From Acidovorax sp. A79 (GTDB taxonomy: Bacteria > Pseudomonadota > Gammaproteobacteria > Burkholderiales > Burkholderiaceae_C), in assembly GCF_041154505.1 (NCBI RefSeq), contig NZ_AP028672.1:3698501-3762500 (forward strand): a DNA stretch of 64,000 nt. The letters run 5' to 3'. Position numbers and translations under genes: made by a program. Shown piece after piece: positions 4,562-23,901 of the stretch. The notes beneath the pieces are model-generated. The model was given only the letters and a program-made list of their open reading frames with translations. It made no database searches and was not told the origin of the DNA. Numbering within the stretch: the first letter of the stretch is position 1; every line of letters begins with the position of its first letter.

Positions 4562-4652
4562 GGTCTCTCCTGTGAATGACGGGCCATGATAGCGAGGGGG
4601 GTTTACGGGAACATTGCGGATATTACGTAGCCCGCCCGGGGCAGGGGCTTTA

Positions 4653-6198: not shown

Positions 6199-6227
6199 GC
6201 CTGGTGTTCCTTGTGAAGTGGTTTGAA

Positions 6228-6279: not shown

Positions 6280-6332
6280 GGAGTGGATTCATCCGTGGTC
6301 TCAGAAAGTGCGCTGCTCCCGCCAGCGCACCC

Positions 6333-6402
6333 GTGGAACTGGCTTCGCCAGGCCACCGGGTGCGTCCCCCTTGAGGGGAAGGCGCGCCAGCGCCTCAGGG
6401 GG
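6333..6402 (-). repeat. Stop-codon-abutting intergenic repeat, copy 2
   Basis: Its plus-strand reading begins GTGGAACTGGCTTCGCCAGG and ends GCGCCTCAGGGGG, 4 bp from the livF stop codon. Internally GTGGCCTGGCG and CGCCAGTTCCAC can pair to a hairpin on the minus-strand transcript. Confidence 0.7.
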
Positions 6403-6406
6403 CACG

Positions 6407-7219: not shown

Positions 7220-7235
7220 GGTCTTGCCTTCCTGT

Positions 7236-7274
7236 GCCAATCCAAAAAGCTGCTGCACAACCCTTTGGATTGGC
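7236..7274 (-). promoter_or_regulatory. Perfect 11-bp inverted repeat in the binding-protein/livF gap
   Basis: GCCAATCCAAA (7236-7246) and TTTGGATTGGC (7264-7274) pair perfectly around a 17-base loop, 17 bp upstream of the livF start. In many transport operons a hairpin after the binding-protein gene protects its 3' end and sets its excess over the ATPase. That role is inferred here, and an operator is possible. Confidence 0.5.
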
Positions 7275-7343
7275 GGCTGCCAAAGAGGCAACCGCTGTTC
7301 ACTGGCCCTTGAAACGGTCGCTGCCCAGGCCAGGGCCACCGCG

Positions 7344-7435
7344 CAAGGGCCGCCCCGCCGCGCTGGTGGCGTCCCCCTTCCCGCAGCGCGAAGCGCTAAG
7401 AGAGAAGGGGGAAGGCGCGTCAGCGCCTCAGGGGG
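7344..7435 (-). repeat. Stop-codon-abutting intergenic repeat, copy 3
   Basis: The copy includes CAAGGGCCGCCCCGC, as in copy 1, then GGTGGCGTCCCCCTTCCC, and ends GCGCCTCAGGGGG ten bases from the stop codon of the binding-protein gene. An extra GCAGCGCGAAGCGC segment expands the middle. Confidence 0.65.
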
Positions 7436-7445
7436 ATGGTCCGAA

Positions 7446-8774: not shown

Positions 8775-8873
8775 GGATGTCTCCTTTGGATGAATGTGTT
8801 GAAGCACGGGGAAGAAACCGACGGATTCAAGGGCTGCGAGCTTTGCACTGGCATGCACGAGGCCAGCGCCACT

Positions 8874-8951
8874 GTGGAACTGGCTTTGCCAGGCCACCGG
8901 TGGCGTCCCCCTCCCGAAGGAGAGGGGGAAGGCGCGAAGCGACTCAGGGGG
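8874..8951 (-). repeat. Stop-codon-abutting intergenic repeat, copy 4
   Basis: This is the most regular copy: GTGGAACTGGCTTTGCCAGG, CACCGGTGGCGTCCCCCTCC, GAGGGGGAAGGCGCGAAGC and finally GACTCAGGGGG, 10 bp from the livM stop codon. It occupies most of the 187-bp gap between livM and the binding-protein gene. Confidence 0.72.
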
Positions 8952-8961
8952 TGCATATCAA

Positions 8962-10038
8962 TCAATGCGGGAAGGGCCACAGGCGCAGCTTCTGCTTGGC
9001 GGTGGACCACAGCTTGGCCAGGCCATGCGGCTCCACGATCAGGAACCACACGATCAGCGCGCCGAAGATCATCAGCTCGGCGTGCGAGACACCGGCGGTG
9101 GACACCTCGATGCCGAACAGGCCCATGAAGGCTGGCAGGAACTGGTTGAGCACGATGGGCAGCACCACGATGAAGGCGGCGCCAAAGAACCCCCCGGAGA
9201 TGGAGCCCAGGCCGCCGATGATCACCATGAACAGGAGGCGGAACGAGATTTCCACCGAGAAGGCCGCGGGCTCCCACGCGCCCAGGTGCACGAAGGCCCA
9301 CAGCGCGCCGGCCATGCCCACGATGAAGGAACTCACGGCGAAGGCGCTGAGCTTGGCGTACATGGGGCGGATGCCGATCACGGCCGCCGCCACGTCCATG
9401 TCGCGGATGGCCATCCATTCGCGGCCGATGGCGCCACGCACCAGGTTCTTGGCCAGCAGGGCCACGACGACCAGCAGGGCCAGGCAGAACAGGTACTTGC
9501 TGGTGGCGCTCTCGATGGGCAGGCCGAAGACCTGCAGGTTGTTCACCGACACCGAGCCCGAGTCCGAGTTGTTGGTGAACCACTTGATGCGCAGGAACAT
9601 CCAGTCGGAGAAGAACTGCGCGGCCAGGGTGGCCACCGCCAGGTACAGGCCCTTGACGCGCAGGCTGGGCAGCCCGAACAGGATGCCGAAGAACGTGGCG
9701 CAGAGGCCGCCCAGGATCAGCGCCGGAATCAGCGGCATGCCCGGAAAGCGCACGAAGAAGTTGTAGGCGCCATAGGCCCCCACCGCCATGAACGCGCCCG
9801 AGCCCAGCGAGATCTGGCCGCAGTAGCCCACGAGGATGTTCACCCCCAGGGCCGCCAGCGCCATGATGACGAAGGGAATCAGGATGGCGCGGAAGATGTA
9901 GTCGCTGGCCAGCATGGGCACGACCAGGAAGGCGACGGCCAGCAGCAGCGCGATGGCGATGCGGTCCTGCGCGATGGGGAAGATCTGCTGGTCGGCGCGG
10001 TAGCTGGTCTTGAACTGGCCGTTTTCGCGGTAGAGCAT
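8962..10038 (-). CDS. livM: Branched-chain amino-acid-type ABC transporter permease
   Basis: The 358-residue membrane protein has about ten hydrophobic segments and the LivM hallmarks NILVGYCGQISLGSGAFMAV near residue 87 and GGLGSISGGFFGAAFIV near residue 275. It pairs with LivH to form the import channel. The N-terminal segment before the first membrane helix (MLYRENGQFKTSYRADQQIF) is typical of the Burkholderiales subgroup. The start follows GGAGACTTCC. Only 28 bp separate it from livH. Confidence 0.92.
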   Translation of the reverse strand: MLYRENGQFKTSYRADQQIFPIAQDRIAIALLLAVAFLVVPMLASDYIFRAILIPFVIMALAALGVNILVGYCGQISLGSGAFMAVGAYGAYNFFVRFPGMPLIPALILGGLCATFFGILFGLPSLRVKGLYLAVATLAAQFFSDWMFLRIKWFTNNSDSGSVSVNNLQVFGLPIESATSKYLFCLALLVVVALLAKNLVRGAIGREWMAIRDMDVAAAVIGIRPMYAKLSAFAVSSFIVGMAGALWAFVHLGAWEPAAFSVEISFRLLFMVIIGGLGSISGGFFGAAFIVVLPIVLNQFLPAFMGLFGIEVSTAGVSHAELMIFGALIVWFLIVEPHGLAKLWSTAKQKLRLWPFPH

Positions 10039-10066
10039 GGAAGTCTCCTGTTCTTGTTGTTATGGG

Positions 10067-10996
10067 TTACACGCGGTCGATGATCTTCTCCCCGAACAAA
10101 CCTTGCGGTCTGAACAGAAGGAACACCAGCGCCAGCACATACGCAAACCAGATCTCGATGCCCCCGCCCACGAACGGGCCCAGGTACACCTCGGACAGCT
10201 TCTCGCCCACGCCGATGATCAGCCCGCCGATGATGGCGCCGGGCACGGACGTGAGGCCCCCCAGGATCACCACCGGCAGCGCGCGCAGCGCCACCGTGGT
10301 CAGCGAGAACTGCACCCCGAGCTTGCTGCCCCAGATCATCCCGGCCACCAGGGCCACGACGCCGGCCACGCACCATACGATCACCCAGATGCGGTTGAGC
10401 GGAATGCCGATGGATTGCGCGGCCTGGTGGTCGTCCGCCACGGCGCGCAGGGCGCGGCCGGTGGACGTCTTCTGGAAGAACACCGACAGCAGCGCCACCA
10501 GGGCGGCGGCGATGGCGGCGGCGATCACGTCTTCCTTGTTCACCAGGATGCCGCCCTGGAAGAGGCTGTCCAGCATGAAGATCGGGTCCTTGGGCATGCC
10601 CACGTCGATCTTGTAGATGTCGCTGCCAAACAGCGTCTGGCCCAGGCCTTCCATGAAGTAGGTGATGCCCAGCGTGGCCATGAGCAGCGTGGCGCCTTCC
10701 TGGTTCACCAGGTGGCGCAGCACCAGCTTCTCGATCAGCCAGGCCACCACGAACATGATGGCGCCCGCGATCACGAAGGCCGCGAGGTTGGCCACGATGG
10801 GACTGCTGATGCCCGTCCACTTGGGAATCCACTCGGCAAAGCGGGCCATGGCCAGCGCGGCGAACAGCACCATCGCGCCCTGCGCGAAGTTGAAGACGCC
10901 CGATGCCTTGTAGATCAGCACGAAGCCCAGCGCCACCAGCGAATACAGCATGCCGGCCATGAGGCCGCCGATCAGTGTTTCGAGAAAGAATGCCAT
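10067..10996 (-). CDS. livH: Branched-chain amino-acid-type ABC transporter permease
   Basis: The 309-residue membrane protein opens MAFFLETLIGGLMAGMLYSL and contains YKASGVFNFAQGAMV and the late GGLTSVPGAIIGGLIIGVGE, which mark LivH permeases. About eight transmembrane helices are visible. The ATG at 10996 is preferred to an upstream frame start inside livG because it has GGGAG nearby and begins exactly where homologues begin. It lies 17 bp after livG. Together with livM, livG, livF and the binding protein it completes a full importer. Confidence 0.92.
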   Translation of the reverse strand: MAFFLETLIGGLMAGMLYSLVALGFVLIYKASGVFNFAQGAMVLFAALAMARFAEWIPKWTGISSPIVANLAAFVIAGAIMFVVAWLIEKLVLRHLVNQEGATLLMATLGITYFMEGLGQTLFGSDIYKIDVGMPKDPIFMLDSLFQGGILVNKEDVIAAAIAAALVALLSVFFQKTSTGRALRAVADDHQAAQSIGIPLNRIWVIVWCVAGVVALVAGMIWGSKLGVQFSLTTVALRALPVVILGGLTSVPGAIIGGLIIGVGEKLSEVYLGPFVGGGIEIWFAYVLALVFLLFRPQGLFGEKIIDRV

Positions 10997-11013
10997 TGTT
11001 TTTTCTCCCGCCC

Positions 11014-11799
11014 TTAGTGGCTCGTGCCCAGATAGGCACTGATAACGTCTTCGTTGTTGCGCACTTCGTCGGGGCTGCCGTCGCCGATCTTCTTGCCGTA
11101 GTCGAGCACCACCACCCGGTCGCTGATGTCCATCACCACGCCCATGTCGTGCTCGATGAGCACGATGGTGGTGCCGAACTCGTCGTTCACGTCGAGGATG
11201 AAGCGGCACATGTCCTGCTTCTCTTCCACGTTCATGCCGGCCATGGGCTCGTCGAGCAGCAGCACCTGGGGCTCCATGGCCAGGGCCCGGCCCAGGTCCA
11301 CGCGCTTTTGCAGGCCGTAGGGCAGCTGGCCCACGGGGGTCTTGCGGAAGGCCTGGATTTCCAGGAAGTCGATGATGTGCTCGACGTATTCGCGGTGGCG
11401 GATCTCCTCGCGCTCGGCGGGGCCGATGCGCAGCGCCTGCATCAGCAGGTTGCTTTTGATCTTGAGGTTGCGCCCGGTCATGATGTTGTCGATCACGCTC
11501 ATGCCCTTGAACAGCGCCAGGTTCTGGAACGTGCGCGCCACGCCCATCTCGGCCACCTGGCGCGAGTTCATGTGCGAGAAGGTCTTGCCACGGAAGGTGA
11601 TGGAGCCGTCCTGCGGCGTGTACACGCCGTTGATGCAGTTGAGCATGGAGCTCTTGCCCGCGCCGTTGGGGCCGATGATGGCGCGGATCTCGTGCTCCTT
11701 GACGTTGAACGAGATGTCCGTCAGCGCCTTCACACCGCCAAACCGCAGGCTGATGTTCTTGACGTCGAGGATGACGTCACCGATCTTCTTTTTGGTCAT
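11014..11799 (-). CDS. livG: Branched-chain amino-acid-type ABC transporter ATP-binding protein
   Basis: The 261-residue ATPase shows Walker A GPNGAGKSS, a LivG-style signature LPYGLQKRVDLGRAL with LPYG replacing LSGG, and Walker B VLLLDEPMAGMN. LivG-type subunits commonly carry such a variant signature. I chose the ATG giving MTKKKIGDVILD; a TTG seven codons upstream is possible. It is the second gene of the operon, 37 bp after the acyl-CoA ligase, and acts as LivF's partner at the inner face of the membrane. Confidence 0.9.
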   Translation of the reverse strand: MTKKKIGDVILDVKNISLRFGGVKALTDISFNVKEHEIRAIIGPNGAGKSSMLNCINGVYTPQDGSITFRGKTFSHMNSRQVAEMGVARTFQNLALFKGMSVIDNIMTGRNLKIKSNLLMQALRIGPAEREEIRHREYVEHIIDFLEIQAFRKTPVGQLPYGLQKRVDLGRALAMEPQVLLLDEPMAGMNVEEKQDMCRFILDVNDEFGTTIVLIEHDMGVVMDISDRVVVLDYGKKIGDGSPDEVRNNEDVISAYLGTSH

Positions 11800-11836
11800 G
11801 GATTGAATGCCTGGACTCAATGGGTGGGGTGCGGGG

Positions 11837-13783
11837 TCATGCGGCCTTTTTCACCGGCGCGAAGGTCTTGGTGTCCGACAGCTTCAGGGTGGCGCTCACG
11901 CTGCCCGTGCGGCCGTCCTCGAACTTGACCTGGGTCTCGATGTACTGCTCGGTGCGGCCCGCGTAGAGAGCGTCCACGAGCACGCCGTATTTCTCGGCGA
12001 TGAAGCCGCGGCGGACCTTGTTGGTGCGCGTGAGCTCGCCGTCGTCGGCATCGAGTTCCTTGTGCAGCACCAGGAAGCGGCTGACCTGGCTGCCCGCCAG
12101 CATGGAATCGGTGGCGAGGTCGGCGTTGACCTTCTCGATGCACTCGCGGATCAGTTCGTACACGTCGGGCTTTTGCGCCAGGTCGGTGTAGCCCGCGTAG
12201 GGCAGGTTGCGGCGCTCGGCCCAGTTGCCCACGGCGTCGAAGTCGATGTTGACCATCACGCACACCTTCTCGCGGCCGTCGCCCAGGGCGACGACTTCCT
12301 TGATGTGCGGGAAGAACTTGAGCTTGTTCTCCACGTACTTGGGCGCGAACATGGCGCCGTCGTTGGCGCCGCCCTTGATGCGGCCCACGTCCTTGACGCG
12401 GTCGATGATCTTCAAGTGGCCCTGCGCGTCGAGGAAGCCCGCGTCGCTCGTGTGGTACCAGCCGTCGGCCGTGAGCACCTCGGCCGTGGCCTTGGGGTTC
12501 TTGTAGTACTCCTTGAGCAGGCCGGCGGACTTGACCAGGATCTCGCCGTTGTCGGCGACCTTGATCTCCACGCCCCGGATGGGCACGCCCACGGTGTCGG
12601 CGCGCGCCTGGTTGTCGGGCTGCAGGCACACGAACACGGCGGTCTCGGTGGAGCCGTACAGCTGCTTCAAGTTGATGCCGATGGAGCGGTAGAAGGTGAA
12701 CAGGTCGGGCCCGATGGCCTCGCCCGCCGTGTAGGCCACGCGCACGCGGCTGAAACCCAGGTTGTTGCGCAGCGGGCCGTACACCAGCAGGTTGCCCAGG
12801 GCGTACTTGATGCGGTCGAGCGTGCCCACCGGCAGGCCGTCCATGAGCGCGGGGCCCACGCGCTGGGCCACGGCCATGCAGGCCTGGAACATCTTGCGCT
12901 TGAGGGTGCCCGCGTCTTCCATGCGGATCATCACGCTGGTGAGCAGGCCTTCGAAGATGCGTGGTGGCGCGAAGTAGTAGGTGGGGCCCACTTCCTTCAG
13001 GTCGATGGTCACGGTGCTGGCCGACTCGGGGCAGTTCACCACGTAGCCGCAGGCCAGCCACTGCGCATAGCTGAAGATGTTCTGGCCGATCCAGGCCGGG
13101 GGCAGGTAGGCCAGCACCTCTTCGCTGCTGGTGAGCTTGTCGAACTCGGCGCCCGCGGATGCGCGGTCCAGCAGCGTGCTGTGGGTGTGCACCACGCCCT
13201 TGGGGTTGCCCGTGGTGCCCGAGGTGAAGAACATCGCCGCCACATCGTCGGGCTGGGCCTTGGCCACCTCGGCGCGGAACCACTGGGGGTTCCTGGCGGC
13301 ATGCGCCTTGCCCGCCTCGATCAGCGAGTCCAGCGACGCGAGGCCTTCTTCCTCGTAGTTGCGCAGGCCGCGCGGATCGTCAAAGAAGATGTTCGAGATC
13401 TGCGGGCACTGCGCGCGGATCTCGAGCAGCTTGTCGACCTGTTCCTGGTCTTCCACCAGGCAAAAGCGCACCTCGGCGTTGTTCAGGGGGAAGATGCATT
13501 CGGCGCCCACGGCGTCCTGGTACAGGGGCACCGGAATGGCGCCCAGCGATTGCGCCGCGAGCATGGTGGCATACAGGCGGGGGCGGTTGGCGCCGATCAC
13601 CACCATGTGCTCGTGGCGCTGCAGGCCCGCCAGGTGCAGGCCGGCCGCCACCTGTTCCACCAGGCGCACCAGGTCGGCCCAGCTGTGGGTCTGCCAGATG
13701 CCGTATTCTTTTTCGCGCAGCGCCGGCGCGTCGGGGCGCTCGGCGGCATGCTTGAGCAGCAATTGCGGGAACGTGGTCTTCAT
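11837..13783 (-). CDS. Long-chain-fatty-acid-CoA ligase-type AMP-binding enzyme
   Basis: The 648-residue enzyme belongs to the long-chain acyl-CoA synthetase branch. It has the phosphate loop FFTSGTTGNPKGVVHTH, the adenine motif LYGSTE, GWYHTSDAG, and the hinge DRVKDVGRIKGG. It would turn a fatty or aryl acid, ATP and CoA into acyl-CoA, AMP and pyrophosphate. It leads the seven-gene minus-strand operon that carries a complete LivHMGF importer and a second ligase, which points to uptake and activation of the same class of carboxylic acids. The start follows TAGGAAC. Upstream lies the Crp-type palindrome at 13891-13908. Confidence 0.88.
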   Translation of the reverse strand: MKTTFPQLLLKHAAERPDAPALREKEYGIWQTHSWADLVRLVEQVAAGLHLAGLQRHEHMVVIGANRPRLYATMLAAQSLGAIPVPLYQDAVGAECIFPLNNAEVRFCLVEDQEQVDKLLEIRAQCPQISNIFFDDPRGLRNYEEEGLASLDSLIEAGKAHAARNPQWFRAEVAKAQPDDVAAMFFTSGTTGNPKGVVHTHSTLLDRASAGAEFDKLTSSEEVLAYLPPAWIGQNIFSYAQWLACGYVVNCPESASTVTIDLKEVGPTYYFAPPRIFEGLLTSVMIRMEDAGTLKRKMFQACMAVAQRVGPALMDGLPVGTLDRIKYALGNLLVYGPLRNNLGFSRVRVAYTAGEAIGPDLFTFYRSIGINLKQLYGSTETAVFVCLQPDNQARADTVGVPIRGVEIKVADNGEILVKSAGLLKEYYKNPKATAEVLTADGWYHTSDAGFLDAQGHLKIIDRVKDVGRIKGGANDGAMFAPKYVENKLKFFPHIKEVVALGDGREKVCVMVNIDFDAVGNWAERRNLPYAGYTDLAQKPDVYELIRECIEKVNADLATDSMLAGSQVSRFLVLHKELDADDGELTRTNKVRRGFIAEKYGVLVDALYAGRTEQYIETQVKFEDGRTGSVSATLKLSDTKTFAPVKKAA

Positions 13784-13864
13784 TCCGGTTCCTAAAAGTA
13801 AGAGGTGTCGGCCCGGGGGCTGCCGGGGCGCGGCTGGGTGCCTTGTGGCAGCGCGTTGGGTCCA

Positions 13865-13870
13865 ATGCTA
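13865..13870 (-). promoter_or_regulatory. Candidate -10 element of the ligase/liv operon
   Basis: On the minus strand TAGCAT stands at 13870-13865, which puts a start point near 13858 and the centre of the upstream palindrome at about -41.5. That is the class II position for activators of the Crp family. The -35 region is not consensus, as expected for an activated promoter. This is a geometric inference. Confidence 0.35.
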
Positions 13871-13890
13871 GGACCCACTTTGACGCCATC

Positions 13891-13908
13891 TTGTCTTGCC
13901 GACGACAA
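13891..13908. promoter_or_regulatory. Crp/Fnr-type operator in front of the ligase/liv operon
   Basis: TTGTCTT-GCCG-ACGACAA is a 7-4-7 inverted repeat with one mismatch. It matches the palindrome at 20971-20988 next to the Crp-type regulator gene. The inner spacing (TGTCn-N6-CGACA) equals the TGTGA-N6-TCACA spacing of Crp sites. It lies between the divergent ligase operon and exeA, 108 bp from the ligase start codon. Confidence 0.6.
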
Positions 13909-14020
13909 TTTACGGGAAACTACTCGGTGGGTGAAACCCTGCCTCCCTGTCCGGGCAGGCCCCGCGCTGTGCCCGGGTACGGCCGGGGGTCGTTTCATGG
14001 CGGGGCGGTATCCTCACGGC

Positions 14021-15781
14021 ATGTACGCCCCGTTTTTCGGTCTTCAGCATCCCCCGTTTTCCATAGCACCGGACCCGCGCTACCTGTTCATGAGCGAGCG
14101 GCACCGCGAGGCGCTGGCGCACCTCCTGTATGGGCTGGACGCGGGCGGCGGCTTCGTGCTGCTCACCGGCGAGGTGGGCACGGGCAAGACCACGGTGTGC
14201 CGCTGTTTCCTGGAGCAGATTCCGGCGAACTGCAACGTGGCCTACATCTTCAATCCCAAGCTCACCGTGGGCGAGCTGCTGCGTTCCATCTGCGACGAGT
14301 TCGGCGTGCCGCACAAGCCGGCCGTGCCGGGGGTGGAGACGGTCAAGGACTGCATCGACCCGCTCAACGCGTCGCTGCTGGCCGCGCACGCCTCGGGGCG
14401 CAACAACGTGCTCATCATCGACGAGGCACAGAACCTCGCGGCCGACGTGCTGGAGCAGTTGCGCCTGCTCACCAACCTGGAAACCAGCGAGCGCAAGCTG
14501 CTGCAGATCATTCTCATCGGCCAGCCCGAGCTGCGCGCCATGGTGGCGCGGCCTTCGATGGAGCAGCTGGCCCAGCGCGTGATCGCGCGCTTTCACCTGG
14601 ACGCCCTGACCCCGCAGGAGACGCAGCAGTACATCGCGCACCGCCTCGCCGTGGCCGGGCTCAACGGGCCGATCCCGTTCGAGCGGCGCGCCATCCAGCG
14701 CGTGCATGCGCTCTCCCACGGCGTGCCCCGGCGCATCAACCTGCTGTGCGACCGGGCGCTGCTCGGCGCCTATGCGGCGGGGGCGCGCCAGGTCACCAGG
14801 GCCATCGTCAACCGCGCCGCGCGCGAAGTGTTCGACGCACCGGCATCGGCCGCCGCGGCGCGCAGCGCGCGGCCACCGCTGCCGCGCTGGGCGTCCACGG
14901 GCCTGGGCGCCGTGGCGGGTGCCGTGGCCGTGGCGGCCGCGGGCTGGGCGCTGGGCCTGTGGCCCGCGCCGCAGCCGGGGCCGCAGGCGGCCACGGGCGC
15001 CGGAGCCGCCGCTCCATCGCGCGCGGCCTCCCGTCCCGCCGCCACGCCCCCGCCGCCCGTAGCCGCGCCCCTGGTGGCGCCCGCGGTGCTGGCGGCGGCG
15101 TCCACCGCGTCCGCCGCGCAGGGGGCGGCCGCGGCCGCCATCCCGCCGGGGGCGCAACCTTCCGCGCTGGAGCAATTCGTGCTGGCGCAGCCCGCCAGCG
15201 ACGCGCCGGCCTGGCAGGCGCTGGCCTCGGCCTGGGGCGTGAAGCTGCCCGCGGGGGCGGACGCTTGCGCCACCTTGCCGCGCGAGGGGCTGCGCTGCTA
15301 CCGCAATCGCCGCGCGGGCCTGAACCTGGTGCGGCAGATCGACCGGCCCGTGCTGCTCGCGCTGTATCCGTCGGATGAAGCCGAGGCCCCGGTCTCCGTG
15401 CTGCTGCGCGGCCTGGACGGCGAGACCGCCACGCTGGAAGGCGGCGGCCGCACGCTGCGGGTGCCGGTGGCCGAACTGGCGCAGGCGTGGCGCGGCGACA
15501 TCGCCACGCTGTGGCGCGCCCCGGCCGGCATGCCCGATCGCGGCGAGATCAGCGACACCCCGGCCGGCGCGGCCTGGCTGGACCAGCAACTGGCCAGCAA
15601 GGCGGCCGGCGGCACGGGCTCCGGAAGCCGGCCGGTGACGCCCGCGCTGCGCCAGTCGCGCATCCACCGCTTCCAGCTGGCCCAGGGCGTGACGCCCGAT
15701 GGCCGTGCCGGCCCCCTGACACTCATGCTGCTCAACCGCGCCACGGGCGTGAACGAGCCGCGCCTGCGCAACGGAGACTGA
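14021..15781 (+). CDS. exeA: ExeA/GspA-like AAA ATPase of type II secretion with peptidoglycan-binding tail
   Basis: The 586-residue protein opens MYAPFFGLQHPPFSIAPDPR, the signature of ExeA-like ATPases. Walker A GEVGTGKTT is at residues 50-58 and Walker B VLIIDEAQN near 130. A transmembrane segment at about 290-314 is followed by an Ala/Pro-rich periplasmic linker and a C-terminal peptidoglycan-binding domain (QLAQGVTPDGRAGPLTLMLL). ExeA with ExeB/GspB helps place the secretin through the cell wall. gspB follows directly, with two bases between stop and start. An in-frame ATG at 13997 is an alternative start, but homologues begin at MYxPFFGL. Confidence 0.85.
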   Translation: MYAPFFGLQHPPFSIAPDPRYLFMSERHREALAHLLYGLDAGGGFVLLTGEVGTGKTTVCRCFLEQIPANCNVAYIFNPKLTVGELLRSICDEFGVPHKPAVPGVETVKDCIDPLNASLLAAHASGRNNVLIIDEAQNLAADVLEQLRLLTNLETSERKLLQIILIGQPELRAMVARPSMEQLAQRVIARFHLDALTPQETQQYIAHRLAVAGLNGPIPFERRAIQRVHALSHGVPRRINLLCDRALLGAYAAGARQVTRAIVNRAAREVFDAPASAAAARSARPPLPRWASTGLGAVAGAVAVAAAGWALGLWPAPQPGPQAATGAGAAAPSRAASRPAATPPPPVAAPLVAPAVLAAASTASAAQGAAAAAIPPGAQPSALEQFVLAQPASDAPAWQALASAWGVKLPAGADACATLPREGLRCYRNRRAGLNLVRQIDRPVLLALYPSDEAEAPVSVLLRGLDGETATLEGGGRTLRVPVAELAQAWRGDIATLWRAPAGMPDRGEISDTPAGAAWLDQQLASKAAGGTGSGSRPVTPALRQSRIHRFQLAQGVTPDGRAGPLTLMLLNRATGVNEPRLRNGD

Positions 15782-15783
15782 CC

Positions 15784-16644
15784 ATGTCCTACATCCTTGA
15801 TGCGCTGCGGCGTGCCGACGCCGAACGCGGCCGGGGGGCCGTGCCGGGCCTGCACTCCCAGGCCGCGCCCGCGGCCGGGGAATTGCCCGCCGTCCACCGG
15901 GCGGCGCCGGCCCCGCTGTGGGCCGTGGCGGCGGCGGTGGTGGGCGTGGCCGTGCTGGCGGCCGGTGGTACCTGGTGGGCCCTGCGGCCGCAGGCCCCGG
16001 TGGCGACGGCGGTGGCCCCGGCCGCGCCCGCCGTGGTGGCGCCTGCCCCTGCCGCGCCCGCCACACCCACAGCACCTGTCACAACGGCAGCTCCAGTGGC
16101 GCCGCCGCCCCCCTTGGCTTCTTCCGTGCCCGCGCCGGCGCCGGCGCCAGAGCCCGCGCTCGCCCGGACGGCCCCGCCGGCGCCCGCACCCGAGCCGCGC
16201 CCGGCGGACAGCAAGCGCGCGGCGGACAAGCGCGGCGGCACCGCGCGTGAGCGCGAGCGGCCTGTGGCCGCGGTGGTGGTGGCACCACCCGCCGCACGGG
16301 CGCCGGCGGCCGATCCGGCGCGCCCGCGTGAGTCGCTTGGCGCGCCGCTCCCAGCCAACGGGTCTGCCCCGCGCTCCACGCAGGACCCCGGCGCTGCGCC
16401 GCCGCCCGCGAGCCCGGTGTTCGCCCAGACCGACCTGCCGGACACCCTGCGCGCGCAGTTGCCCGCGCTCAAGGTCACGGGGGCCACGCATTCCAGCAAC
16501 CCGGTGTACCGCATGGCCATCGTCAACGGGCAGGTGCTGCACGAGGGCGACCAGGCCGCGCCGGGCCTGGTGCTGGAGAAGATCGAGCCGGGGCGCACGG
16601 TCTGGACCTTCCGCGGCTACCGGTACGCGGTGGCCGCGCAATAG
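15784..16644 (+). CDS. gspB: GspB/ExeB-like general secretion pathway protein B
   Basis: The 286-residue protein begins MSYILDALRRADAERGRG, the diagnostic N-terminus of GspB/ExeB. A single transmembrane helix follows at residues 44-66, then a long Ala/Pro-rich periplasmic linker. The C-terminal GspB domain (about 215-285) includes HSSNPVYRMAIVNGQVLHEG and ends with TVWTFRGYRYAVAAQ. It forms an inner-membrane complex with ExeA that assists secretin assembly. It is translationally close-coupled to exeA. The core gsp cluster is not in this window. The secreted chitinase-like enzyme 570 bp downstream is a plausible client of the pathway. Confidence 0.88.
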   Translation: MSYILDALRRADAERGRGAVPGLHSQAAPAAGELPAVHRAAPAPLWAVAAAVVGVAVLAAGGTWWALRPQAPVATAVAPAAPAVVAPAPAAPATPTAPVTTAAPVAPPPPLASSVPAPAPAPEPALARTAPPAPAPEPRPADSKRAADKRGGTARERERPVAAVVVAPPAARAPAADPARPRESLGAPLPANGSAPRSTQDPGAAPPPASPVFAQTDLPDTLRAQLPALKVTGATHSSNPVYRMAIVNGQVLHEGDQAAPGLVLEKIEPGRTVWTFRGYRYAVAAQ

Positions 16645-17216
16645 GGCGTCCCCGGGGCGCCGGCACCCCCTGGGATGCCGGCCGGTGCGTCTGCATGACG
16701 CCTGCCGCTCCACCAGGGCCGCCCGTGGCGCGGCCGTGGACTCTTTTGCTCTCCTGGCGCGGGCCGCGCTGAGCGCGCTTTTGCGGGGCTGGCCGCCGCC
16801 GCCGCAGGGCGGCGAACGCCTGGGCTCCGTGCGGCCCGGTGGACCGCGGTGCGCCACCGGGGGAGCCCGCGCCGGTGCACGGGGCGGCCACGCCTTTCTG
16901 CCGCGCGCCGCGTTCGGGGTGGGGGGGTGGAGCGGGTCTTACGACCCGGCGCACAAGGTCGTAGGACATCAGTCGGATGGATTTGCCGCGCACCGCTTCG
17001 GACAATGGGCCCGGTGGCGGAGCGCTGCCTGCAAGGCCTGCGCTCCTGCCTGCCGCCGCCAAAGCGCCGTGCCTGCTGCCGGTATGAATCCAATAGCAAA
17101 GAATCAATATGGGACAAGCGTCAAAGCCACATTTGATTCAGGAATCACACCGTTCTGCCGCGCGGCGTTTTTGTTTTCTTTTGCCCTTTGCCTTGTCTTC
17201 CAGGAGAAATTTCACC
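16645..17216. other. 572-bp intergenic region upstream of the chitinase-like gene
   Basis: No supported gene lies here; short frames in it have arginine-rich, composition-driven translations. An imperfect hairpin GCCGGCA...TGCCGGC follows the gspB stop. Further on there are two inverted repeats, GTCTTACGACC/GGTCGTAGGAC (16936-16967) and TGATTC-AG-GAATCA (17134-17147). The last 100 bp become T-rich before a strong CAGGAGAAA ribosome-binding site. Confidence 0.6.
16936..16967. promoter_or_regulatory. Near-perfect 11-bp inverted repeat, possible operator
   Basis: GTCTTACGACC (16936-16946) and GGTCGTAGGAC (16957-16967) pair with one mismatch around ten bases, so the arm centres are about two helical turns apart. 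This is compatible with a dimeric regulator in front of the chitinase-like gene, or with a weak hairpin. The cognate protein is unknown. Confidence 0.35.
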
Positions 17217-19622
17217 ATGCCCCATCTACCAGCGGCGAGGGAGCGCGCAGCGCGCTCCTGGCGCATCCGGTCCCGCCATGCCGGGACCCTGCTGCGGCTA
17301 TTGGCCGCCTCCTGGATGCTGGCCGGCGGCAGCGCGATGGCGCAGGCCAGTTGCGCGCCGGGCCAGTGGCTGGCGGAGTACTTTCCCAATACCGGACTGT
17401 CCGGCGCACCGGTGCTGACCCGCTGCGAGGAGGGGCCGATCGACCGCTACTGGATGACCGACAGCCCCGACCCCCGGCTGCCGGTGGACGGTTTCTCGGC
17501 GCGCTGGACGGCCTCGGTGCCCTTTGCGGCCGGCACCGCCCGGTTCGTGACTTTCACCGACGATGGCGTGCGCGTGTTCGTCAACGGCCAGCGGGTGATC
17601 GACAACTGGACCCCGCACGGCATCACGATGGACGTGGCCGAACTGCCCCTGGCGGCCGGCAACCATACGGTGCGCATGGAGTATTTCGAGGCCGGCGGAG
17701 AAGGCCTGGCCCAGCTCGTCATCGAAGGCGGGGCCGAGCCGCCGCCGCCCGCGCCGCCACGCATCCTGTCGTTCGGGGCGGACCCGGGCACCATTGACGC
17801 TGGCGCCACGAGCACCCTGGCGTGGAGCACCGAGAACGCCGCCACGTGCACGGCATCCGGCGGCTGGAGCGGCGACCGCCCCGTCAGCGGCACCGCCCCC
17901 GCCAGCCCGGTGGTGACGACCACCTACAGCCTGAGCTGCAGCAACGCGCAGGGAGATGCCACCGGGGCCTCCACGGTGATCCTCGTGCGCAACAGCCCGC
18001 CGCCGGTGCCCCCCACCATCGCCAGCTTCGCCGCGACGCCCAGCCGCATCCGGCCGGGAGAAAGCGCGCGCCTGGACTGGCAGTCGCAGAACGCCTCCGG
18101 CTGCACCGCCTCGGGTGGCTGGAGCGGTGCGCGCCCGGTGCAGGGCAGCGAGCAGGTCAGTCCTGCCGCCAGCGCCGCCTACACGCTGGAGTGCGTCAAC
18201 AGCGCGGGCCAGGCCACCAGCGCGCTCGTCAACGTGACGGTGGACGCAGGCAACCCGCTGCCCCCGGTGGGCGGCGTCACCGCCACGGCCACCCAGCAGG
18301 GCGTGCGTGTTGGCTGGAACCCCGTGACCAAGAGCGGCAAGTGGGTCAATGGCTACTACGCGGGCTGGTTCTGGAACCTGTTCCCGCCGGACGCCGTGGA
18401 CATGACCACCATGACCCATTTCGTGTTCGGCCGCTATGCGCCCGCGCTGGGCTCGCTGCCCGGCGGACAGGCGGGCGATCTGCTGGAGGGCGCCGGAACG
18501 GGTCACCTGGCCCATGTGGAGGATGCGCTGATCGCCAAGGCCCATGCGGCGGGCGTCAAGGCGGTGATGATGGTGGGCGGGGACAGCGATGGCGCGGGGT
18601 TCATCGCCGCCACGGCGAACCCCACGGTGCGCGCACGCTTCATCAAGAACATTCTCGACAAGGCGGTGCAGAAAAACTACGACGGCGTGGACATCGACTG
18701 GGAAGAAAAGCTGGACACCGAGGTCGGCCGCGCCCAGGCCCTGGCGCTGCTGCGCGAGCTGCGCGCCGCCTCGGCGCTGCGTGCCCGCTACCAGGCGCCG
18801 AACGCGCCGCTGGAACTGAGCTGGCCCGGCTTCTGGGTGAACAAGAACCAGCCGGACATCACGCCCTGGCACGCCCAGGTGGCCGAGCTGGTGGACCAGT
18901 ACAACCTGATGACCTACAGCATGGCGGGCGACTGGGGCTGGAAGTCGTGGCACCACTCCCCCCTGTTCGGCGAGGGCGACCTGCACCCCACGTCCATCGC
19001 CTCCACGGTGCAGGCCTACCTGAGCGCGGGCGTACCGCGCACCAAGCTGGGCATTGGCATCGGGCTCTACGGCGTGTACTACCCCCGTCCGGTGACGGGG
19101 CCGCGCCAGGACCTCACGGGCATGCAGGGCTGGGTGGACAACGGCGACTGGATGAACAACTACCAGCGCCTGGTGGAGGAAAACGCCTTCGGGCAGCCCG
19201 GCGCCGCATATCGCTGGGACGACGTGGCCAAGCAGGGGTACATCACGTACTCGCAGCCCTGGTACCGGGGCTCCACGCCGGTCACCTACCTGAGCTTCGA
19301 GGATGAGCGCTCCATCGCCGAGAAGGGCAAATGGGTGCGCGAGCAGGGCCTGGGCGGCACGCTGGTGTGGACCATCAACTACGGCTATCTGCCGCAGTCC
19401 GGCACCAACCCGCAGATGCAGGCGGTCAAGAAGTCCTTCATTGCAAGCAGTGCCGCCAGCTACCGGGTGTACCGCGACGGCGTGGCGATCGCCACGGTCA
19501 CCGATCCGGCCTACACCGACACCACCGCGCCCAGCGGCAGCCACAGCTACCAGGTCAGCATGCTGGATGCGTCCGGCAACGAAGGCCCCCTGTCCGCCGC
19601 GGTGGTGGTTCAGGTGCCCTGA
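17217..19622 (+). CDS. Secreted GH18 chitinase-like enzyme with PA14 and Ig-like domains
   Basis: The 801-residue protein has an arginine-rich N-terminus and hydrophobic core ending SAMAQA, an export signal. Next come a PA14-like domain (about 43-165) and two similar Ig-like modules (about 175-260 and 262-345, each with CTASGGWSG). The GH18 catalytic domain spans about 376-740 and carries DGVDIDWE at 489-496, where the last glutamate is the family's proton donor. The N-terminal strands of a fibronectin-III domain (GVTATATQQGVRVGWNPV, about 353-370) precede GH18. The rest (SYRVYRDGVAIATV onward) follows it at 742-801, as if GH18 were inserted in that fold. Chitin or a related beta-1,4-GlcNAc polymer is the likely substrate. 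The start follows CAGGAGAAA. Confidence 0.88.
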   Translation: MPHLPAARERAARSWRIRSRHAGTLLRLLAASWMLAGGSAMAQASCAPGQWLAEYFPNTGLSGAPVLTRCEEGPIDRYWMTDSPDPRLPVDGFSARWTASVPFAAGTARFVTFTDDGVRVFVNGQRVIDNWTPHGITMDVAELPLAAGNHTVRMEYFEAGGEGLAQLVIEGGAEPPPPAPPRILSFGADPGTIDAGATSTLAWSTENAATCTASGGWSGDRPVSGTAPASPVVTTTYSLSCSNAQGDATGASTVILVRNSPPPVPPTIASFAATPSRIRPGESARLDWQSQNASGCTASGGWSGARPVQGSEQVSPAASAAYTLECVNSAGQATSALVNVTVDAGNPLPPVGGVTATATQQGVRVGWNPVTKSGKWVNGYYAGWFWNLFPPDAVDMTTMTHFVFGRYAPALGSLPGGQAGDLLEGAGTGHLAHVEDALIAKAHAAGVKAVMMVGGDSDGAGFIAATANPTVRARFIKNILDKAVQKNYDGVDIDWEEKLDTEVGRAQALALLRELRAASALRARYQAPNAPLELSWPGFWVNKNQPDITPWHAQVAELVDQYNLMTYSMAGDWGWKSWHHSPLFGEGDLHPTSIASTVQAYLSAGVPRTKLGIGIGLYGVYYPRPVTGPRQDLTGMQGWVDNGDWMNNYQRLVEENAFGQPGAAYRWDDVAKQGYITYSQPWYRGSTPVTYLSFEDERSIAEKGKWVREQGLGGTLVWTINYGYLPQSGTNPQMQAVKKSFIASSAASYRVYRDGVAIATVTDPAYTDTTAPSGSHSYQVSMLDASGNEGPLSAAVVVQVP

Positions 19623-19624
19623 TT

Positions 19625-19648
19625 CCGCCCGCGCCACGGGGCGGGCGG
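19625..19648. terminator. Hairpin after the chitinase-like gene
   Basis: CCGCCCGC (19625-19632) and GCGGGCGG (19641-19648) form a perfect 8-bp stem with an 8-base loop, two bases after the stop codon. No U-tract follows. It lies between convergent genes. Confidence 0.4.
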
Positions 19649-19704
19649 CGCCCGTCCGGTGGCCGGGGGAGGGCAGAACGGCCGAAGGCCGCCGAGGCCC
19701 GGGC

Positions 19705-20892
19705 TCAGCGCAGGAAGCGCCCGTCGCGCCCGACCAGCGTCAGCTCGACAAAACGCGAGGCGTTGCGGTCCGGGGTGGTGGCATGGATCTCGAAGCCGCC
19801 CAGGTCCCACTTCTTGAGGTTCCAGGTGGCATCGATGAAGGCGGCGCGCGTGGGGTTGCGCCCCGCGCGCTGCAGTGCCTCGGCGAACACGCGGGCGTTG
19901 ATGTAGCCCTCCAGCGCCAGGTGCGAAGGTTCTGCGGTGGCGCCCGCCGCCTTCCAGGCCGCCTGAAAGTCCCGCACCACCGGCATGACCGCATTGGAGG
20001 GCAGCGGCACGACCTGCGAGATCGCCATGCCCGTGGCGTCCGCGCCCAGGGCCTTCACGGTGGCGGGCGTCCCCATCACCGACAGCGCATACAGCGTCAC
20101 GCCGCGCTTGATGGCGCGGAACGCCTTCACGAACTCCAGCGTGGGCTTGCCCGCCAGGCCGATCACGATGGCCTCGAGGTTGCCGCCCGCCAGCTTGGCC
20201 GCCGCCGTGCCCGCGTCCGAGGCATTGTTCTCCACCGTCACGGTCAGCGCCTCGGGCAGCTTGAGGCGGTCCATCGACTGCTTGGCGGCGGTGAACACCT
20301 CTTTGCCGAACGAGTTGTTCTGGTAGACGATGCCGATGCGCTGGATGCCGATGGTGGACAGGTGCTGCACCAGCTTTTCGGCCTCGTCGGCGTAGCTCGC
20401 GCGGATGTTGAACACGTTGCGGGCACTCTTGGTGCGGCTCAGCTGCGCGCCCGTGAACGGCGCGAAGAACGGGATCCCGCTCTCGACCACCTTGGGCAGC
20501 ATGGCGTCGATCATGGGCGTGCCCATGCAGTTGAACAGCGCGAAGGTGCCCGGATCGGCCAGGAACTGCGTCATGTTGGCCAGCGCCTTGGGCACGTCGT
20601 AGGTGTCGTCCTGGGTGACCAGCTCGATGGTCTTGCCGTGGATGCCGCCCCGTGCATTGATGCCCGCAAACGCCGCCTTGGCGCCCTGGTGCATGGCCGA
20701 GCCGAGATCGCCCAGCGGGCCGGTGAGGGCGGTGGACTGTGCAATCCGGATGGCCCCTTCCTGCGCGCGGGCGCTGCCCAGTCCCAGCCAGGGCAGGCTG
20801 ACGGCCGCGGCCAGCAGCTGGCGCCGGGCAAGGCGTGGCGAAGGGCGGATGGCTGGCCGTGCCAGGCCTGCGGGCGGGTGGTTGTCGGGCAT
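19705..20892 (-). CDS. LivK-like ABC transporter substrate-binding protein
   Basis: The 395-residue protein has a twin-arginine-like signal (LARRQLLAAAVSLPWLGLG, cleavage near SARAQ) and a type I periplasmic-binding fold with IRIAQSTALTGPLGDLG and GIQRIGIVYQNNSFGKEVF. It belongs to the HAAT receptors but has no transporter genes beside it. It is divergent from a Crp-type regulator, and the shared promoter region holds the same palindrome as the liv/ligase operon. It may therefore supply an alternative ligand receptor to that importer. The ATG at 20892 follows GAGGAGA; a longer frame from 21201 would cover the operator and the regulator gene. Confidence 0.85.
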   Translation of the reverse strand: MPDNHPPAGLARPAIRPSPRLARRQLLAAAVSLPWLGLGSARAQEGAIRIAQSTALTGPLGDLGSAMHQGAKAAFAGINARGGIHGKTIELVTQDDTYDVPKALANMTQFLADPGTFALFNCMGTPMIDAMLPKVVESGIPFFAPFTGAQLSRTKSARNVFNIRASYADEAEKLVQHLSTIGIQRIGIVYQNNSFGKEVFTAAKQSMDRLKLPEALTVTVENNASDAGTAAAKLAGGNLEAIVIGLAGKPTLEFVKAFRAIKRGVTLYALSVMGTPATVKALGADATGMAISQVVPLPSNAVMPVVRDFQAAWKAAGATAEPSHLALEGYINARVFAEALQRAGRNPTRAAFIDATWNLKKWDLGGFEIHATTPDRNASRFVELTLVGRDGRFLR

Positions 20893-20970
20893 GCGTGTCT
20901 CCTCGGGTGGCCCAGGCGGGCGCATCGGCTGCTGGGGAGGCGACATCATCCCGTCACAATTGACATTTTT

Positions 20971-20988
20971 TTGTCGTTCTGACGACAA
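20971..20988. promoter_or_regulatory. Perfect Crp/Fnr-type operator between the LivK-like gene and the regulator
   Basis: TTGTCGT-TCTG-ACGACAA is an exact 7-4-7 palindrome centred 87 bp upstream of the LivK-like start codon and 73 bp upstream of the regulator start codon. On the minus strand a GATGAT (20950-20945) falls where a -10 box would lie if the palindrome were centred at -41.5. This is the same geometry as at 13891-13908. Confidence 0.65.
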
Positions 20989-21052
20989 TCCGGGTCGTGG
21001 TATTCCCGCATCGCATGCCCCCTTTGTCGCTCTCCCCCGGACCCGCACCGCC

Positions 21053-21790
21053 ATGGACTCACGCATGAACCAGGATCTTTCGCTCCACCAGCGGCGCCGG
21101 CCGCCCACGGTGGACGAGCTCGGCGGCATACCCTGGCTGAGCCTGCTGCTGCCCGCCGAGCGCGAGCGGGCCGTGGCGTCGCTGCTGGTGGGGGACGCCA
21201 ACGCGGGCGACTACGTCTGCCGGGTGGGGCGGCCGGTGACCTACTGGTTTGGCGTGGTGGAGGGCCTGCTCAAGATGAGCAGCGACAACGCGCAGGGGCA
21301 GACCATGACCTACGCCGGCCTGCCGCCCGGGGGCTGGTTTGGCGAGGGCACGGCCTTGAAGCGCGAACCCTACCGCTACAACATCCAGGCGCTGCGCAAG
21401 AGCGTGGTGGCCGGGTTGCCGATCGACAGCTTCCACTGGCTGCTGGACCACTCCATCGGCTTCAACCGCTTCGTGATGAACCAGCTCAACGAGCGGCTGG
21501 GCCAGTTCATCGCCGCGCGCGAGATCGACCGCCTGAACAACCCCGACGTGCGCGTGGCCCGCAGCCTGGCATCGCTGTTCAACCCGGTGCTGTACCCCGG
21601 CGTGGGGGAGGTGCTGCGCATCACGCAGCAGGAGCTGGCCTATCTGGTGGGCCTGTCGCGCCAGCGCGTGAACGAGGCGCTGGCGGCGCTGGAGGCGCAG
21701 GGCGCGATCCGGGTGGAATACGGCGGCCTGCGCGTGCTGGATCTGCTGGCGCTGCGCTCGAGCATCTTCCCGCTGCAGCAGGGCGTTTGA
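21053..21790 (+). CDS. Crp/Fnr family transcriptional regulator
   Basis: The 245-residue protein has an N-terminal cyclic-nucleotide-binding-like beta barrel (about 25-140) and a C-terminal winged helix with ITQQELAYLVGLSRQRVNEAL near residues 190-210. Aligned by eye with Crp, the recognition helix reads SRQRVNEAL against SRETVGRIL. Two DNA-contacting positions of Crp (E181 and R185) are therefore changed to Q and E, which fits the altered TGTCG half-site found nearby. No cysteine cluster for an Fe-S centre is visible, so it is not an Fnr oxygen sensor. The effector is unknown; an acyl-CoA or a cyclic nucleotide is possible. It is divergent from the LivK-like gene. The start lacks a clear ribosome-binding site, and a second ATG lies four codons on. 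Confidence 0.85.
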   Translation: MDSRMNQDLSLHQRRRPPTVDELGGIPWLSLLLPAERERAVASLLVGDANAGDYVCRVGRPVTYWFGVVEGLLKMSSDNAQGQTMTYAGLPPGGWFGEGTALKREPYRYNIQALRKSVVAGLPIDSFHWLLDHSIGFNRFVMNQLNERLGQFIAAREIDRLNNPDVRVARSLASLFNPVLYPGVGEVLRITQQELAYLVGLSRQRVNEALAALEAQGAIRVEYGGLRVLDLLALRSSIFPLQQGV

Positions 21791-21803: not shown

Positions 21804-23507
21804 TCAGCCCGGCAGCGAGGGTTGCTGGCCGCGCGAAGGGGGCTGCAGGCTGGCGCGCTGCGGGGGCGCCGGTACGGGCACCGGCGCGGGCGAGGCCGCG
21901 CCGCGGCTCCAGTGGTTCTCGCCGCCGCCGTCGCGCGTGAGGCGGAAGGTGCCCACCATCTGGGTGAGGCGGCCCGCCTGGTCCTTGAGGCTGTCGGCCG
22001 CCGCGGCCCCTTCCTCCACGAGGGCGGCGTTCTGCTGTGTCATTTCCTCGAGTTCGCCCACCGAATGGCTCACGTGGCCGATGCGCTGGCTCTGTTCCTG
22101 CGTGGCGGCGGTGATCTCGCCCATGATGTCGGACACGCGGCGCACCGACAGCACCAGCTCCTCGATGGTCTTGCCCGCGTGGTTCACCAGGGTGCTGCCC
22201 TCCTGCACCTGATCGACGCTGGCGCCGATCAGGGCCTTGATCTCGCGCGCGGCATTGGCCGAGCGGCCGGCCAGGCTGCGCACTTCGCCCGCCACGACGG
22301 CGAAGCCCCGGCCCTGTTCGCCGGCGCGGGCGGCTTCCACCGCGGCGTTGAGGGCCAGGATGTTGGTCTGGAAGGCGATGCCGTCGATCACGCTGATGAT
22401 GTCGGCGATCTTGCGCGAACTGGCGCTGATGGTGTCCATGGTGCGCACGACCTGCGACACCACCTCGCCCCCGCGCGTGGCCGCGTCGGACGCGGTGGAC
22501 GCGAGCTGGTTGGCCTGGCGGGCCGAGTCGGCGCTTTGCGACACGGTGCCGGTCAGGTCCACCAGCGCGGTGGCCGCGCCCTGCAGATTGTGCGAGGTCT
22601 GCTCGGTGCGCTGGCTCAGGTCCAGGTTGCCCGAGGCGACTTCCGAACTGGCCACGAGGATGGAGTCGGCGGTCTGGCCGATCTCGCCCACCAGCGTGCG
22701 CAGGCGCTCCTGCATGGCGGCGATGGCTTCCAGCAGACGGCCGGTTTCGTCCTGGATGCGCACTTCCACCTGCGAGGTGAGGTCGCCGCGCGCGATGCGT
22801 TCCGCCACCACCACGGCGCGGCCGATGGGGGCGGTGATGCTGGCGGTGATGCGCCACGCGATCAGCGCGCCGAGCCCGATGGCCAGCAGCACCAGCAGGC
22901 CGCCCACCATGCGGGCGTTGCTCTGGGTCTGCTCGGCCGAGGCCGTGGCGTCGGCGTTGAGGCTGTTCTGCAGCTCGATGAGTTCGCGCAGCTTGGCGCG
23001 CCACGCGGTTTCCACGGGCGCCACGCGGGTCATCAGCGCCAGGGTCGCGCTCACCGTGTCGCCGTCGTCGGCCGATTTGATCGCGTTGTCGAGCTCGGGG
23101 CGCGCCTTGCGGCCCAGCGCCTGCACCTCGCCCAGCAGCTTGATCTCGGCGGGCGTGGCGCGGGCGGGGGTGAGGAGTTCGCCCAGGGCGGTTTCCTGGC
23201 GGCCATATTCCTTGAGCGTCGCGGAAATGGCAGCGATCTGTTCGTGTGCCTGCTTGGGGTCGATATCGTTGAGCATGGCCGCCGAGCGGCTCTGGATGCC
23301 GATGGCGCTCACGCTCTCCAGCATGCCGTTGACGAGCTTGGACTTGCTGGCGCCGGCACCGGTGACCTGGCGCATCTGCTCATGCACCTTGCCCACGGAA
23401 AGCTGGCCCACGGCAGCGACGGCCACCACCAGCACCAGCATGCAGCCGAAGCCCAGGCCGAGCCGGCTGGAGATCGACAGGGATTTAAGTGATGAAGCGG
23501 CCGGCAT
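21804..23507 (-). CDS. Methyl-accepting chemotaxis protein
   Basis: The 567-residue chemoreceptor has a first transmembrane helix near residues 17-36, a periplasmic four-helix-type sensor of about 150 residues, and a second helix at about 190-212. A HAMP domain follows, then a cytoplasmic signalling domain with the hairpin tip [29 protein letters not shown]. The tail is proline-rich (PVPVPAPPQ) and lacks a CheR-docking pentapeptide. The sensor region ([20 protein letters not shown]) resembles the 4HB type common in Comamonadaceae. The ligand is not predictable. The ATG at 23507 is preceded by AAGGAAC. The gene ends 13 bp from the convergent regulator gene. Confidence 0.92.
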
Positions 23508-23901
23508 GGTGTTCCTTGAGGTCTCTGGGTGCAATGGATCGGGATGCACAAGGCAAAGCAATAACGGGGCCCGCATCAGCCGGGCCGGCGGCCGCGCCCC
23601 GCACGTCGGCCCAGGGCAGTGTAGGCAGAATTGACAAGAAGTGTCATGAGGCTTGCGGATGGCGCCATGCCCGTTGTGCATGGGTGTTTGTTACAAATGG
23701 CCTTCCAGGGCGTGCACCACTCCCGCACGGCAGAAGGCGGGGTGGAGGCTGTGGAAAATGAGGGAAAATGCGGAAAATCGGTGTGCTGCATTGGGTTTTT
23801 TGCTATTTGATTGATAGCAATTGGCGGGTGCTTCGTTGGCCGGTGGCTCCCGGTGGCGCACCCCATCATGTATAAACCCGTTACAGATGTGAGGCCTCAG
23901 G
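23508..23901. other. 394-bp divergent promoter region
   Basis: This region separates the chemoreceptor and the DUF4394 lipoprotein gene and contains no supported gene. Visible structures are TGACA-AGAAG-TGTCA at 23632-23646 and TTGCTAT-TTGATTG-ATAGCAA near 23800-23820. The latter may be a worn copy of the AGCTAT palindrome family. I looked for a sigma-28 promoter for the chemoreceptor and did not find one with correct spacing. Confidence 0.5.

Follow-up and report, generated by a model that had tools for sequence, protein, structure and literature searches.

The CRP of Escherichia coli activates transcription from sites centred at -41.5, which is the standard activating position of the Crp/Fnr superfamily, and it contacts cyclic AMP (cAMP) with the residues R82, S83, T127 and S128; its half-site is TGTGA, and its regulon is global. 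FNR, another member, has four cysteines for a 4Fe-4S cluster. Here we analyse a putative switch of this superfamily in a stretch of 64,000 nucleotides from Acidovorax sp. A79 (contig NZ_AP028672.1, positions 3,698,501 to 3,762,500; hereafter the window), which comprises the regulator P0001, two palindromes that are its candidate operators, genes of a liv-type importer and two genes of the coenzyme A (CoA) ligase type. CooA, the haem-based carbon monoxide (CO) sensor of Rhodospirillum rubrum and Desulfovibrio, has the published consensus TGTCGGCNNGCCGACA with TGTCG half-sites (PMC545781), and CprK is reported to be a Crp-Fnr regulator of halorespiration that is induced by an aromatic ligand (PMC2610375).

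With CRP, P0001 shares the superfamily domains, a palindromic (candidate) operator and the predicted position of this operator at -41.5, as judged from a -10-like hexamer. It differs from CRP in the half-site, which reads TTGTCGT here, in the replacement of the cAMP-contacting residues, and in a regulon that appears to be local instead of global. CooA is likewise a local regulator of the superfamily, and its consensus contains the outer TGTCG...CGACA at the same spacing, but the inner bases differ, and the window operators do not match TGTCGGCNNGCCGACA (PMC545781). Moreover, CooA controls CO dehydrogenase and hydrogenase genes, whereas liv and ligase genes are concerned here. CprK can serve as a model for an acid-sensing regulator, in a comparison of function only. 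Among the papers listed in literature searches, judged by title and start of the abstract, mostly without subscription journals and without regulon databases, no account of this operator or regulon was found, and an earlier description may exist. One of the two operator 7-mers is contained in 7,326 papers, and the 20 listed of these likewise gave nothing that seemed relevant. The locus likely represents a conserved and local Crp-superfamily switch that would act from the class II position at two promoters.

Operator sequences

An earlier note on this DNA had placed palindromes at 13891-13908 and 20971-20988, and both are exact there. Operator 1, TTGTCTTGCCGACGACAA, lies upstream of ligA, and operator 2, TTGTCGTTCTGACGACAA, is found between livK1 on the minus strand and the regulator gene on the plus strand; their common form is TTGTCNT-N4-ACGACAA. 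The claim that the window holds no third copy also stands, as there is no other palindrome with fewer than three mismatches, and the sole other match with up to three mismatches (at 30888) has all three of them. At this tolerance, the window gives 6 matches against a shuffle mean of 4.45, i.e. no excess.

The own genome (5.87 Mb) was scanned by pattern, with the reversed pattern as control. Three places match the loose form TTGTC-N8-GACAA, namely the two window sites and C1:5436454, and none match its reversed control, but base composition predicts 2.3 places, and the loose count therefore is no evidence on its own. The strict motif TTGTCNTNNNNACGACAA, which is expected only 0.02 times per genome, matches all three of these, the two window sites included, and one mismatch to TTGTCGTNNNNACGACAA adds a fourth, C1:812848, upstream of another Crp-type gene. 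Sites with three mismatches were rejected as targets, since at up to three mismatches the genome contains 67 matches per strand, fewer than the 110 per strand of the reversed pattern. The idea that the genome contains only two sites was given up because of the third exact site at C1:5436454.

A genome-wide scan for the motif had been proposed as a check, and extended to the genus it clearly favours the two promoters. In 47 Acidovorax genomes, with places counted by hand, the strict motif gave 59 matches at 54 distinct places in 38 genomes, while the reversed pattern gave 2 matches in one genome. Together, 52 of the 54 places are at the two promoters, 36 at that of ligA and 16 at that of livK1 and the regulator (one of these, in G062, was assigned by contig number and coordinates matching those of locus L021); the remaining two are C1:5436454 and its copy in the second genome of the same species. 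Nine genomes have no strict match. Three of them are only 72-82% complete, and one (G002) has an operator with two mismatches upstream of ligA; another of the nine, G001, has neither the regulator nor the palindrome. The palindromes are not chance occurrences.

Promoter geometry

At both minus-strand promoters a -10-like hexamer had been noticed at the class II spacing, and this geometry recurs across the relatives. A hexamer was accepted if it had at least four of the six consensus bases at the given offset, and the relevant offset between its centre and that of the operator is 32 base pairs (bp). At ligA, this offset is occupied in all 67 rows, made up of the window and those 66 loci that combine no more than two mismatches with 60 bp or more ahead of the start codon; no other offset exceeds 9/67. 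A larger set was obtained from 85 loci with a usable start by omitting four with weak sites (L051, L090, L094 and L154), and dereplication of these 81 at 85% identity left 57 promoters. The hexamer is at 32 bp in 56 of these, with 8/57 for the best other offset, and conserved and variable columns alternate across the set. At livK1, 33 of 38 loci have the hexamer at 32 bp, some with a degraded half-site (L027, L050, L062, L072 and L074 do not), and in other families of the order (L147-L157) TANNNT is at exactly 32 bp in 8 of 11. Judged from these hexamers, the operator centre would be at -41.5, i.e. in the class II position.

The palindrome and the spaced hexamer can be combined to one composite pattern. 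With up to three mismatches, this pattern has three matches per strand in the own genome and none in the control, and the matches with no or one mismatch are those of ligA, the third site and livK1. In 250 genomes of the family, the exact palindrome with the spaced -10 hexamer is found at 63 places in 60 genomes, again with 0 in the reversed control. A CGTCAAA box, which is not part of the search pattern, follows at 60 of these 63 places and is missing only from both copies of the third site and from a second site of G391. Of 29 loci fetched from composite places (partly read by eye), all but the third site, i.e. 28, have ligA as the adjoining gene.

Conservation of the locus and co-occurrence with the regulator

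A regulator match (E<=1e-80) is present in 203 of the 250 family genomes and missing from 47. All 60 genomes with a composite site are among the 203 and none is among the 47 (compared by eye; Fisher p 7e-7 with phylogeny ignored). One genome of the genus, G001 (2 contigs, rated 100% complete), gave no match to the regulator at E<=1e-30 and yet keeps ligA-livG-livH-livM-livK2-livF-paaK-like; within 260 bp upstream of its ligA the palindrome is absent, the best sequence having 6 mismatches. As a single case (n=1), this fits a joint loss of regulator and palindrome.

In most loci in which the region is visible, the regulator lies near ligA-livG-livH-livM-livK2-livF-paaK-like in opposite direction, with the operator upstream of ligA. 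The nearest recognised gene upstream of ligA varies among the 81 promoters. In 39 it is the regulator, which faces away, as does the ExeA-type gene that takes this place in 17; in 23 livK1 is arranged in tandem, and in 2 none of the genes tested for was recognised. The window has the ExeA-type arrangement with livK1 and other genes in between, hence its two operators. Of the best 80 among 579 related loci, 49 carry upstream of the regulator a site with no more than two mismatches.

The regulator subgroup was detected in 51 of 300 genomes sampled from the order (E<=1e-55). Of 51 places outside the own genome, 20 were taken as order-wide sample, with regulators that are 46-84% identical. In 19 of these 20, the ligase/liv cluster is at most about 3 kb away from the regulator, and the recognition helix is SRQR-x-N in all 19 that were read (L149 is not among them). 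A small local regulon is well supported by these comparisons. The earlier idea of a dedicated regulon is thus largely supported, as regards the link between regulator and operon, the class II spacing and the very small size of the regulon; its exclusiveness is in doubt, as there is a third exact site near a paralogue.

The regulator

P0001 was formerly described as Crp-type, which is correct for the superfamily (PF00027 with 57.7 bits, cut-off 27.5; PF13545 with 48.8 bits, cut-off 27), but it is not a CRP: the CRP equivalog model gives 43.1 bits at a cut-off of 266, and R82, S83, T127 and S128 are replaced by Y, R, F and I, with E72 being kept. The translation contains a single cysteine, unlike FNR. 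An alignment with E. coli CRP confirms that the recognition helix differs, as had been noted, in that R180 is kept, E181 is changed to Q, T182 to R, and R185 to E, and the residues at 181 and 185 may cause the preference for TGTCG. P0001 is 100% identical to the regulator of Acidovorax sp. sif1233, and the close relatives found are mostly from Acidovorax. The best 120 listed homologues are 86-96% identical and have generic names, and among solved structures there are only remote matches (best E 1.7e-10). A gene that resembles a methyl-accepting chemotaxis protein (21804-23681) follows the regulator gene and stays there in many Acidovorax loci.

A putative opposing promoter

The most interesting feature of the circuit is the putative opposing promoter. 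A promoter scan of 4500-21200 gave two sigma-70-like sequences. Each of them is on the plus strand and overlaps one of the palindromes, and its -10-like box is built from an operator half-site. The T that follows the right half-site, and that completes this box, is found in 80 of 81 ligA promoters and in 37 of 38 livK1/regulator regions, and CGTCAAA, whose plus-strand reading is the -35-like element at operator 1, is conserved in 80 of 81 ligA promoters. If the opposing -10 box is at -12 to -7, the operator would cover -25 to -8 of the opposing promoter, with its centre at -16.5. Such an overlap predicts repression by the bound dimer and, at 20971, self-repression of the regulator, which we regard as likely from this layout.

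The elements are, however, not restricted to the regulator gene. CGTCAAA is kept where an ExeA-type gene faces ligA (17/17) and where livK1 is located in tandem upstream (23/23), and it may therefore belong to the ligA promoter itself; an interpretation as merely the regulator's own -35 element was discarded, as the box persists without the regulator as neighbour. An opposing promoter that is retained away from the regulator gene might serve as a built-in competitor. The relatives also share a conserved box AGGA.TTTCCC at about -66 to -56 of ligA (GTAGTTTCCC in the window), and a second factor may bind this box or CGTCAAA. Reading these two boxes as a promoter of an extracytoplasmic function (ECF) sigma factor was rejected by reasoning only, because the spacing does not fit.

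The third site and the paralogues

The third exact palindrome at C1:5436454 (L127:9455-9472) has TAGCAT at 32 bp, directed towards an enoyl-CoA hydratase gene, and no CGTCAAA box. The block, with genes named by reading the translations, contains NAD(P)H oxidoreductase-like, amidohydrolase-like, GST-like and DsbA-like genes together with CrpA (C1:5434043-5434801), a Crp-type paralogue whose helix SRQRVNVAL is nearly equal to that of P0001. None of the block genes from CrpA to the DsbA-like gene was detected beside CrpB in the stretches compared from 7 other Acidovorax genomes, of which one is a 4.8-kb contig. CrpA itself (E<=1e-60) was detected in 2 of 200 family genomes, which both belong to this species. 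The third site probably is CrpA's own, and cross-regulation between CrpA and P0001 is possible. As the helices of the two paralogues are nearly identical, more than one regulator may use the operator in this species.

Other paralogues also have related palindromes in their vicinity. At C1:812848 (L129:6849-6866), the one-mismatch palindrome CTGTCGTACACACGACAA precedes a Crp-type gene with the helix SRQTTNQILKDLE and is possibly a site of self-control, and a near-palindrome with three mismatches is located upstream of another paralogue at C1:541297. In L126, the related palindrome CAGTCATTGCGATGACAT lies about 66 bp before a paralogue match at 9265 (41%), near another ligase/liv set, and may indicate a code between helix and operator.

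A model of the circuit and its alternatives

In the model that we favour, P0001 would be a local regulator of the Crp superfamily that does not respond to cAMP, and its dimer would bind both palindromes. The effector might be the imported carboxylic acid or its CoA thioester. From -41.5, the dimer would activate in class II fashion the minus-strand promoter of ligA-livG-livH-livM-livK2-livF-paaK-like as well as that of livK1, and the same bound dimer would cover about -25 to -8 of the opposing sigma-70-like promoter. At 20971, this opposing promoter would drive the regulator gene, so that the regulator would repress itself. We consider this whole scheme, with a dedicated regulator, two class II promoters and self-repression, to be probable.

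Several points speak against the model or restrict it. The operators, their spacing and conservation, the co-occurrence with the regulator and the overlapping promoter-like sequences are seen in the DNA; binding, activation, self-repression, the effector and the single transcript of the operon are predicted. In the other families, three of the eleven loci (L149, L153 and L157) are off the 32-bp spacing, and in the order-wide sample the palindromes of distant families are weaker, with at most two mismatches near the regulator in only 9 of 20 loci. In eleven of the 80 related loci, the 300 bp in front of the regulator gene contain only sites with five or more mismatches, and self-control by the regulator thus is not universal. 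No exact composite match is found in 143 of the 203 family genomes with a regulator, and the Fisher p value takes no account of phylogeny. Shuffled sequences yield a mean of 1.2 opposing promoters, and the two detected are no more than that; their number is therefore ordinary, and only their position is striking. The opposing promoter-like elements are also retained at loci in which they do not face the regulator gene. Finally, the own genome contains paralogues with similar helices.

Which other explanations could account for the conserved operators? One or more paralogous Crp-type regulators with SRQxxN helices could bind them, either instead of P0001 or beside it, and indeed, leaving aside the paralogue at 813067, Q is found at the position of 181 in several Crp-type genes of the own genome, CrpA lies beside the third exact site, and near-palindromes precede two further paralogues. 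Nevertheless, CrpA is confined to this species, whereas the ligA operator is widespread together with P0001-type regulators and adjoins their gene in many loci, and the operator is missing from the one complete genus genome that lacks such a regulator; an assignment to the paralogues therefore appears rather improbable. Still less probable is that the regulator is mainly a repressor here, or that the conserved blocks serve another factor, and that the -41.5 spacing is incidental. The conservation of CGTCAAA, which equals that of the palindrome, the further AGGA.TTTCCC box and the overlap of the operator with the opposing promoter would agree with such a role, but -41.5 is the standard activating position of the superfamily, ligA, livK1 and the third site keep the 32-bp spacing within differing sequence contexts, and the third site lacks CGTCAAA altogether.

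That the palindromes have no function, being either accidental or simply inherited, we regard as very improbable. Shared descent among close relatives does inflate the counts, and the loose pattern is about as frequent as base composition predicts, but this is opposed by the comparisons with the controls (59 versus 2 for the strict and 63 versus 0 for the composite pattern) and by the alternation of conserved with variable columns in the dereplicated promoters.

The model of activation by P0001 could be extended in a direction that we propose only tentatively and hold to be the less likely case. Each operator might be a two-faced switch: while activating the import/ligase promoter, the bound dimer would simultaneously block the opposing sigma-70 promoter, which would be a built-in competitor that otherwise holds the operon off, and in this species an acquired paralogue that shares the operator code might wire a second catabolic block into the circuit. 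Irrespective of this extension, the analysis provides an operator, a promoter layout and a target list for a Crp-superfamily subgroup that is present in 203 of 250 family genomes. Being small, the circuit is completely testable, and it could reveal which acid is imported by a widespread liv/CoA-ligase operon. The CrpA block represents a natural case of two paralogues with one operator code.

Target genes and cargo

The genes and sequence elements of the locus are compiled in Table 1. The gene calls of the earlier note, i.e. liv genes, two ligase-type genes and a Crp-type regulator, are all retained, and we assume that the PaaK-like ligase is part of one transcript with the liv genes. This ligase is far below the cut-offs of the PaaK equivalog models (143.1 versus 700 and 126.4 versus 646.3 bits), and ligA is nearest to FadD5-type and 4-coumarate ligases with a modest score. 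The structures that resemble LivK2 and LivK1 (4ru0_A and 3lop_A, respectively) are both entered under general names of binding proteins only. As the matches of LivK proteins and ligases are unspecific, the cargo can be predicted only as a carboxylic acid.

Table 1. Genes and sequence elements of the locus (window positions; E, E-value)
Feature	Position	Strand	Evidence and remarks
PaaK-like CoA ligase	4951-6198	-	PF00501 45.6 bits; 4r1l_A E 2.4e-40
livF-type ATPase	6407-7219	-	profile matches; start codon inferred
livK2, periplasmic binding protein	7446-8774	-	PF13458 148.9 bits; 4ru0_A E 1.6e-109; start codon inferred
livM-type permease	8962-10038	-	PF02653 108 bits
livH-type permease	10067-10996	-	PF02653 113 bits; start codon inferred from sequence
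livG-type ATPase	11014-11820	-	profile matches; start codon provisional
ligA, acyl-CoA ligase-type AMP-binding enzyme	11837-13783	-	PF00501 222.9 bits; 8r2q_A E 6e-25
-10-like hexamer TAGCAT of ligA	13865-13870	-	centred exactly 32 bp from operator 1 centre
CGTCAAA box	13879-13885	-	plus-strand reading is -35-like TTGACG, 13880-13885
TTGACG-18-GACAAT	13880-13909	+	promoter scan; overlaps operator 1
-10-like GACAAT of opposing promoter at operator 1	13904-13909	+	promoter scan
livK1, periplasmic binding protein	19705-20892	-	PF13458 190 bits; 3lop_A E 6.3e-55
-10-like hexamer GATGAT of livK1	20945-20950	-	centred exactly 32 bp from operator 2 centre
TTGACA-18-GACAAT	20960-20989	+	promoter scan; overlaps operator 2
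-35-like TTGACA of putative regulator promoter	20960-20965	+	promoter scan
-10-like GACAAT of putative regulator promoter	20984-20989	+	promoter scan; right half of operator plus T
Crp/Fnr-superfamily regulator P0001, 245 amino acids	21053-21790	+	PF00027, PF13545; recognition helix SRQRVNEAL

An Rfam search of the window gave 0 matches. The gaps between livF, livK2 and their neighbours contain two repeat families, one at 6321-6371 and 8862-8912 and the other at 6375-6402 and 7408-7435, the copies of which are 88% and 96% identical, respectively.

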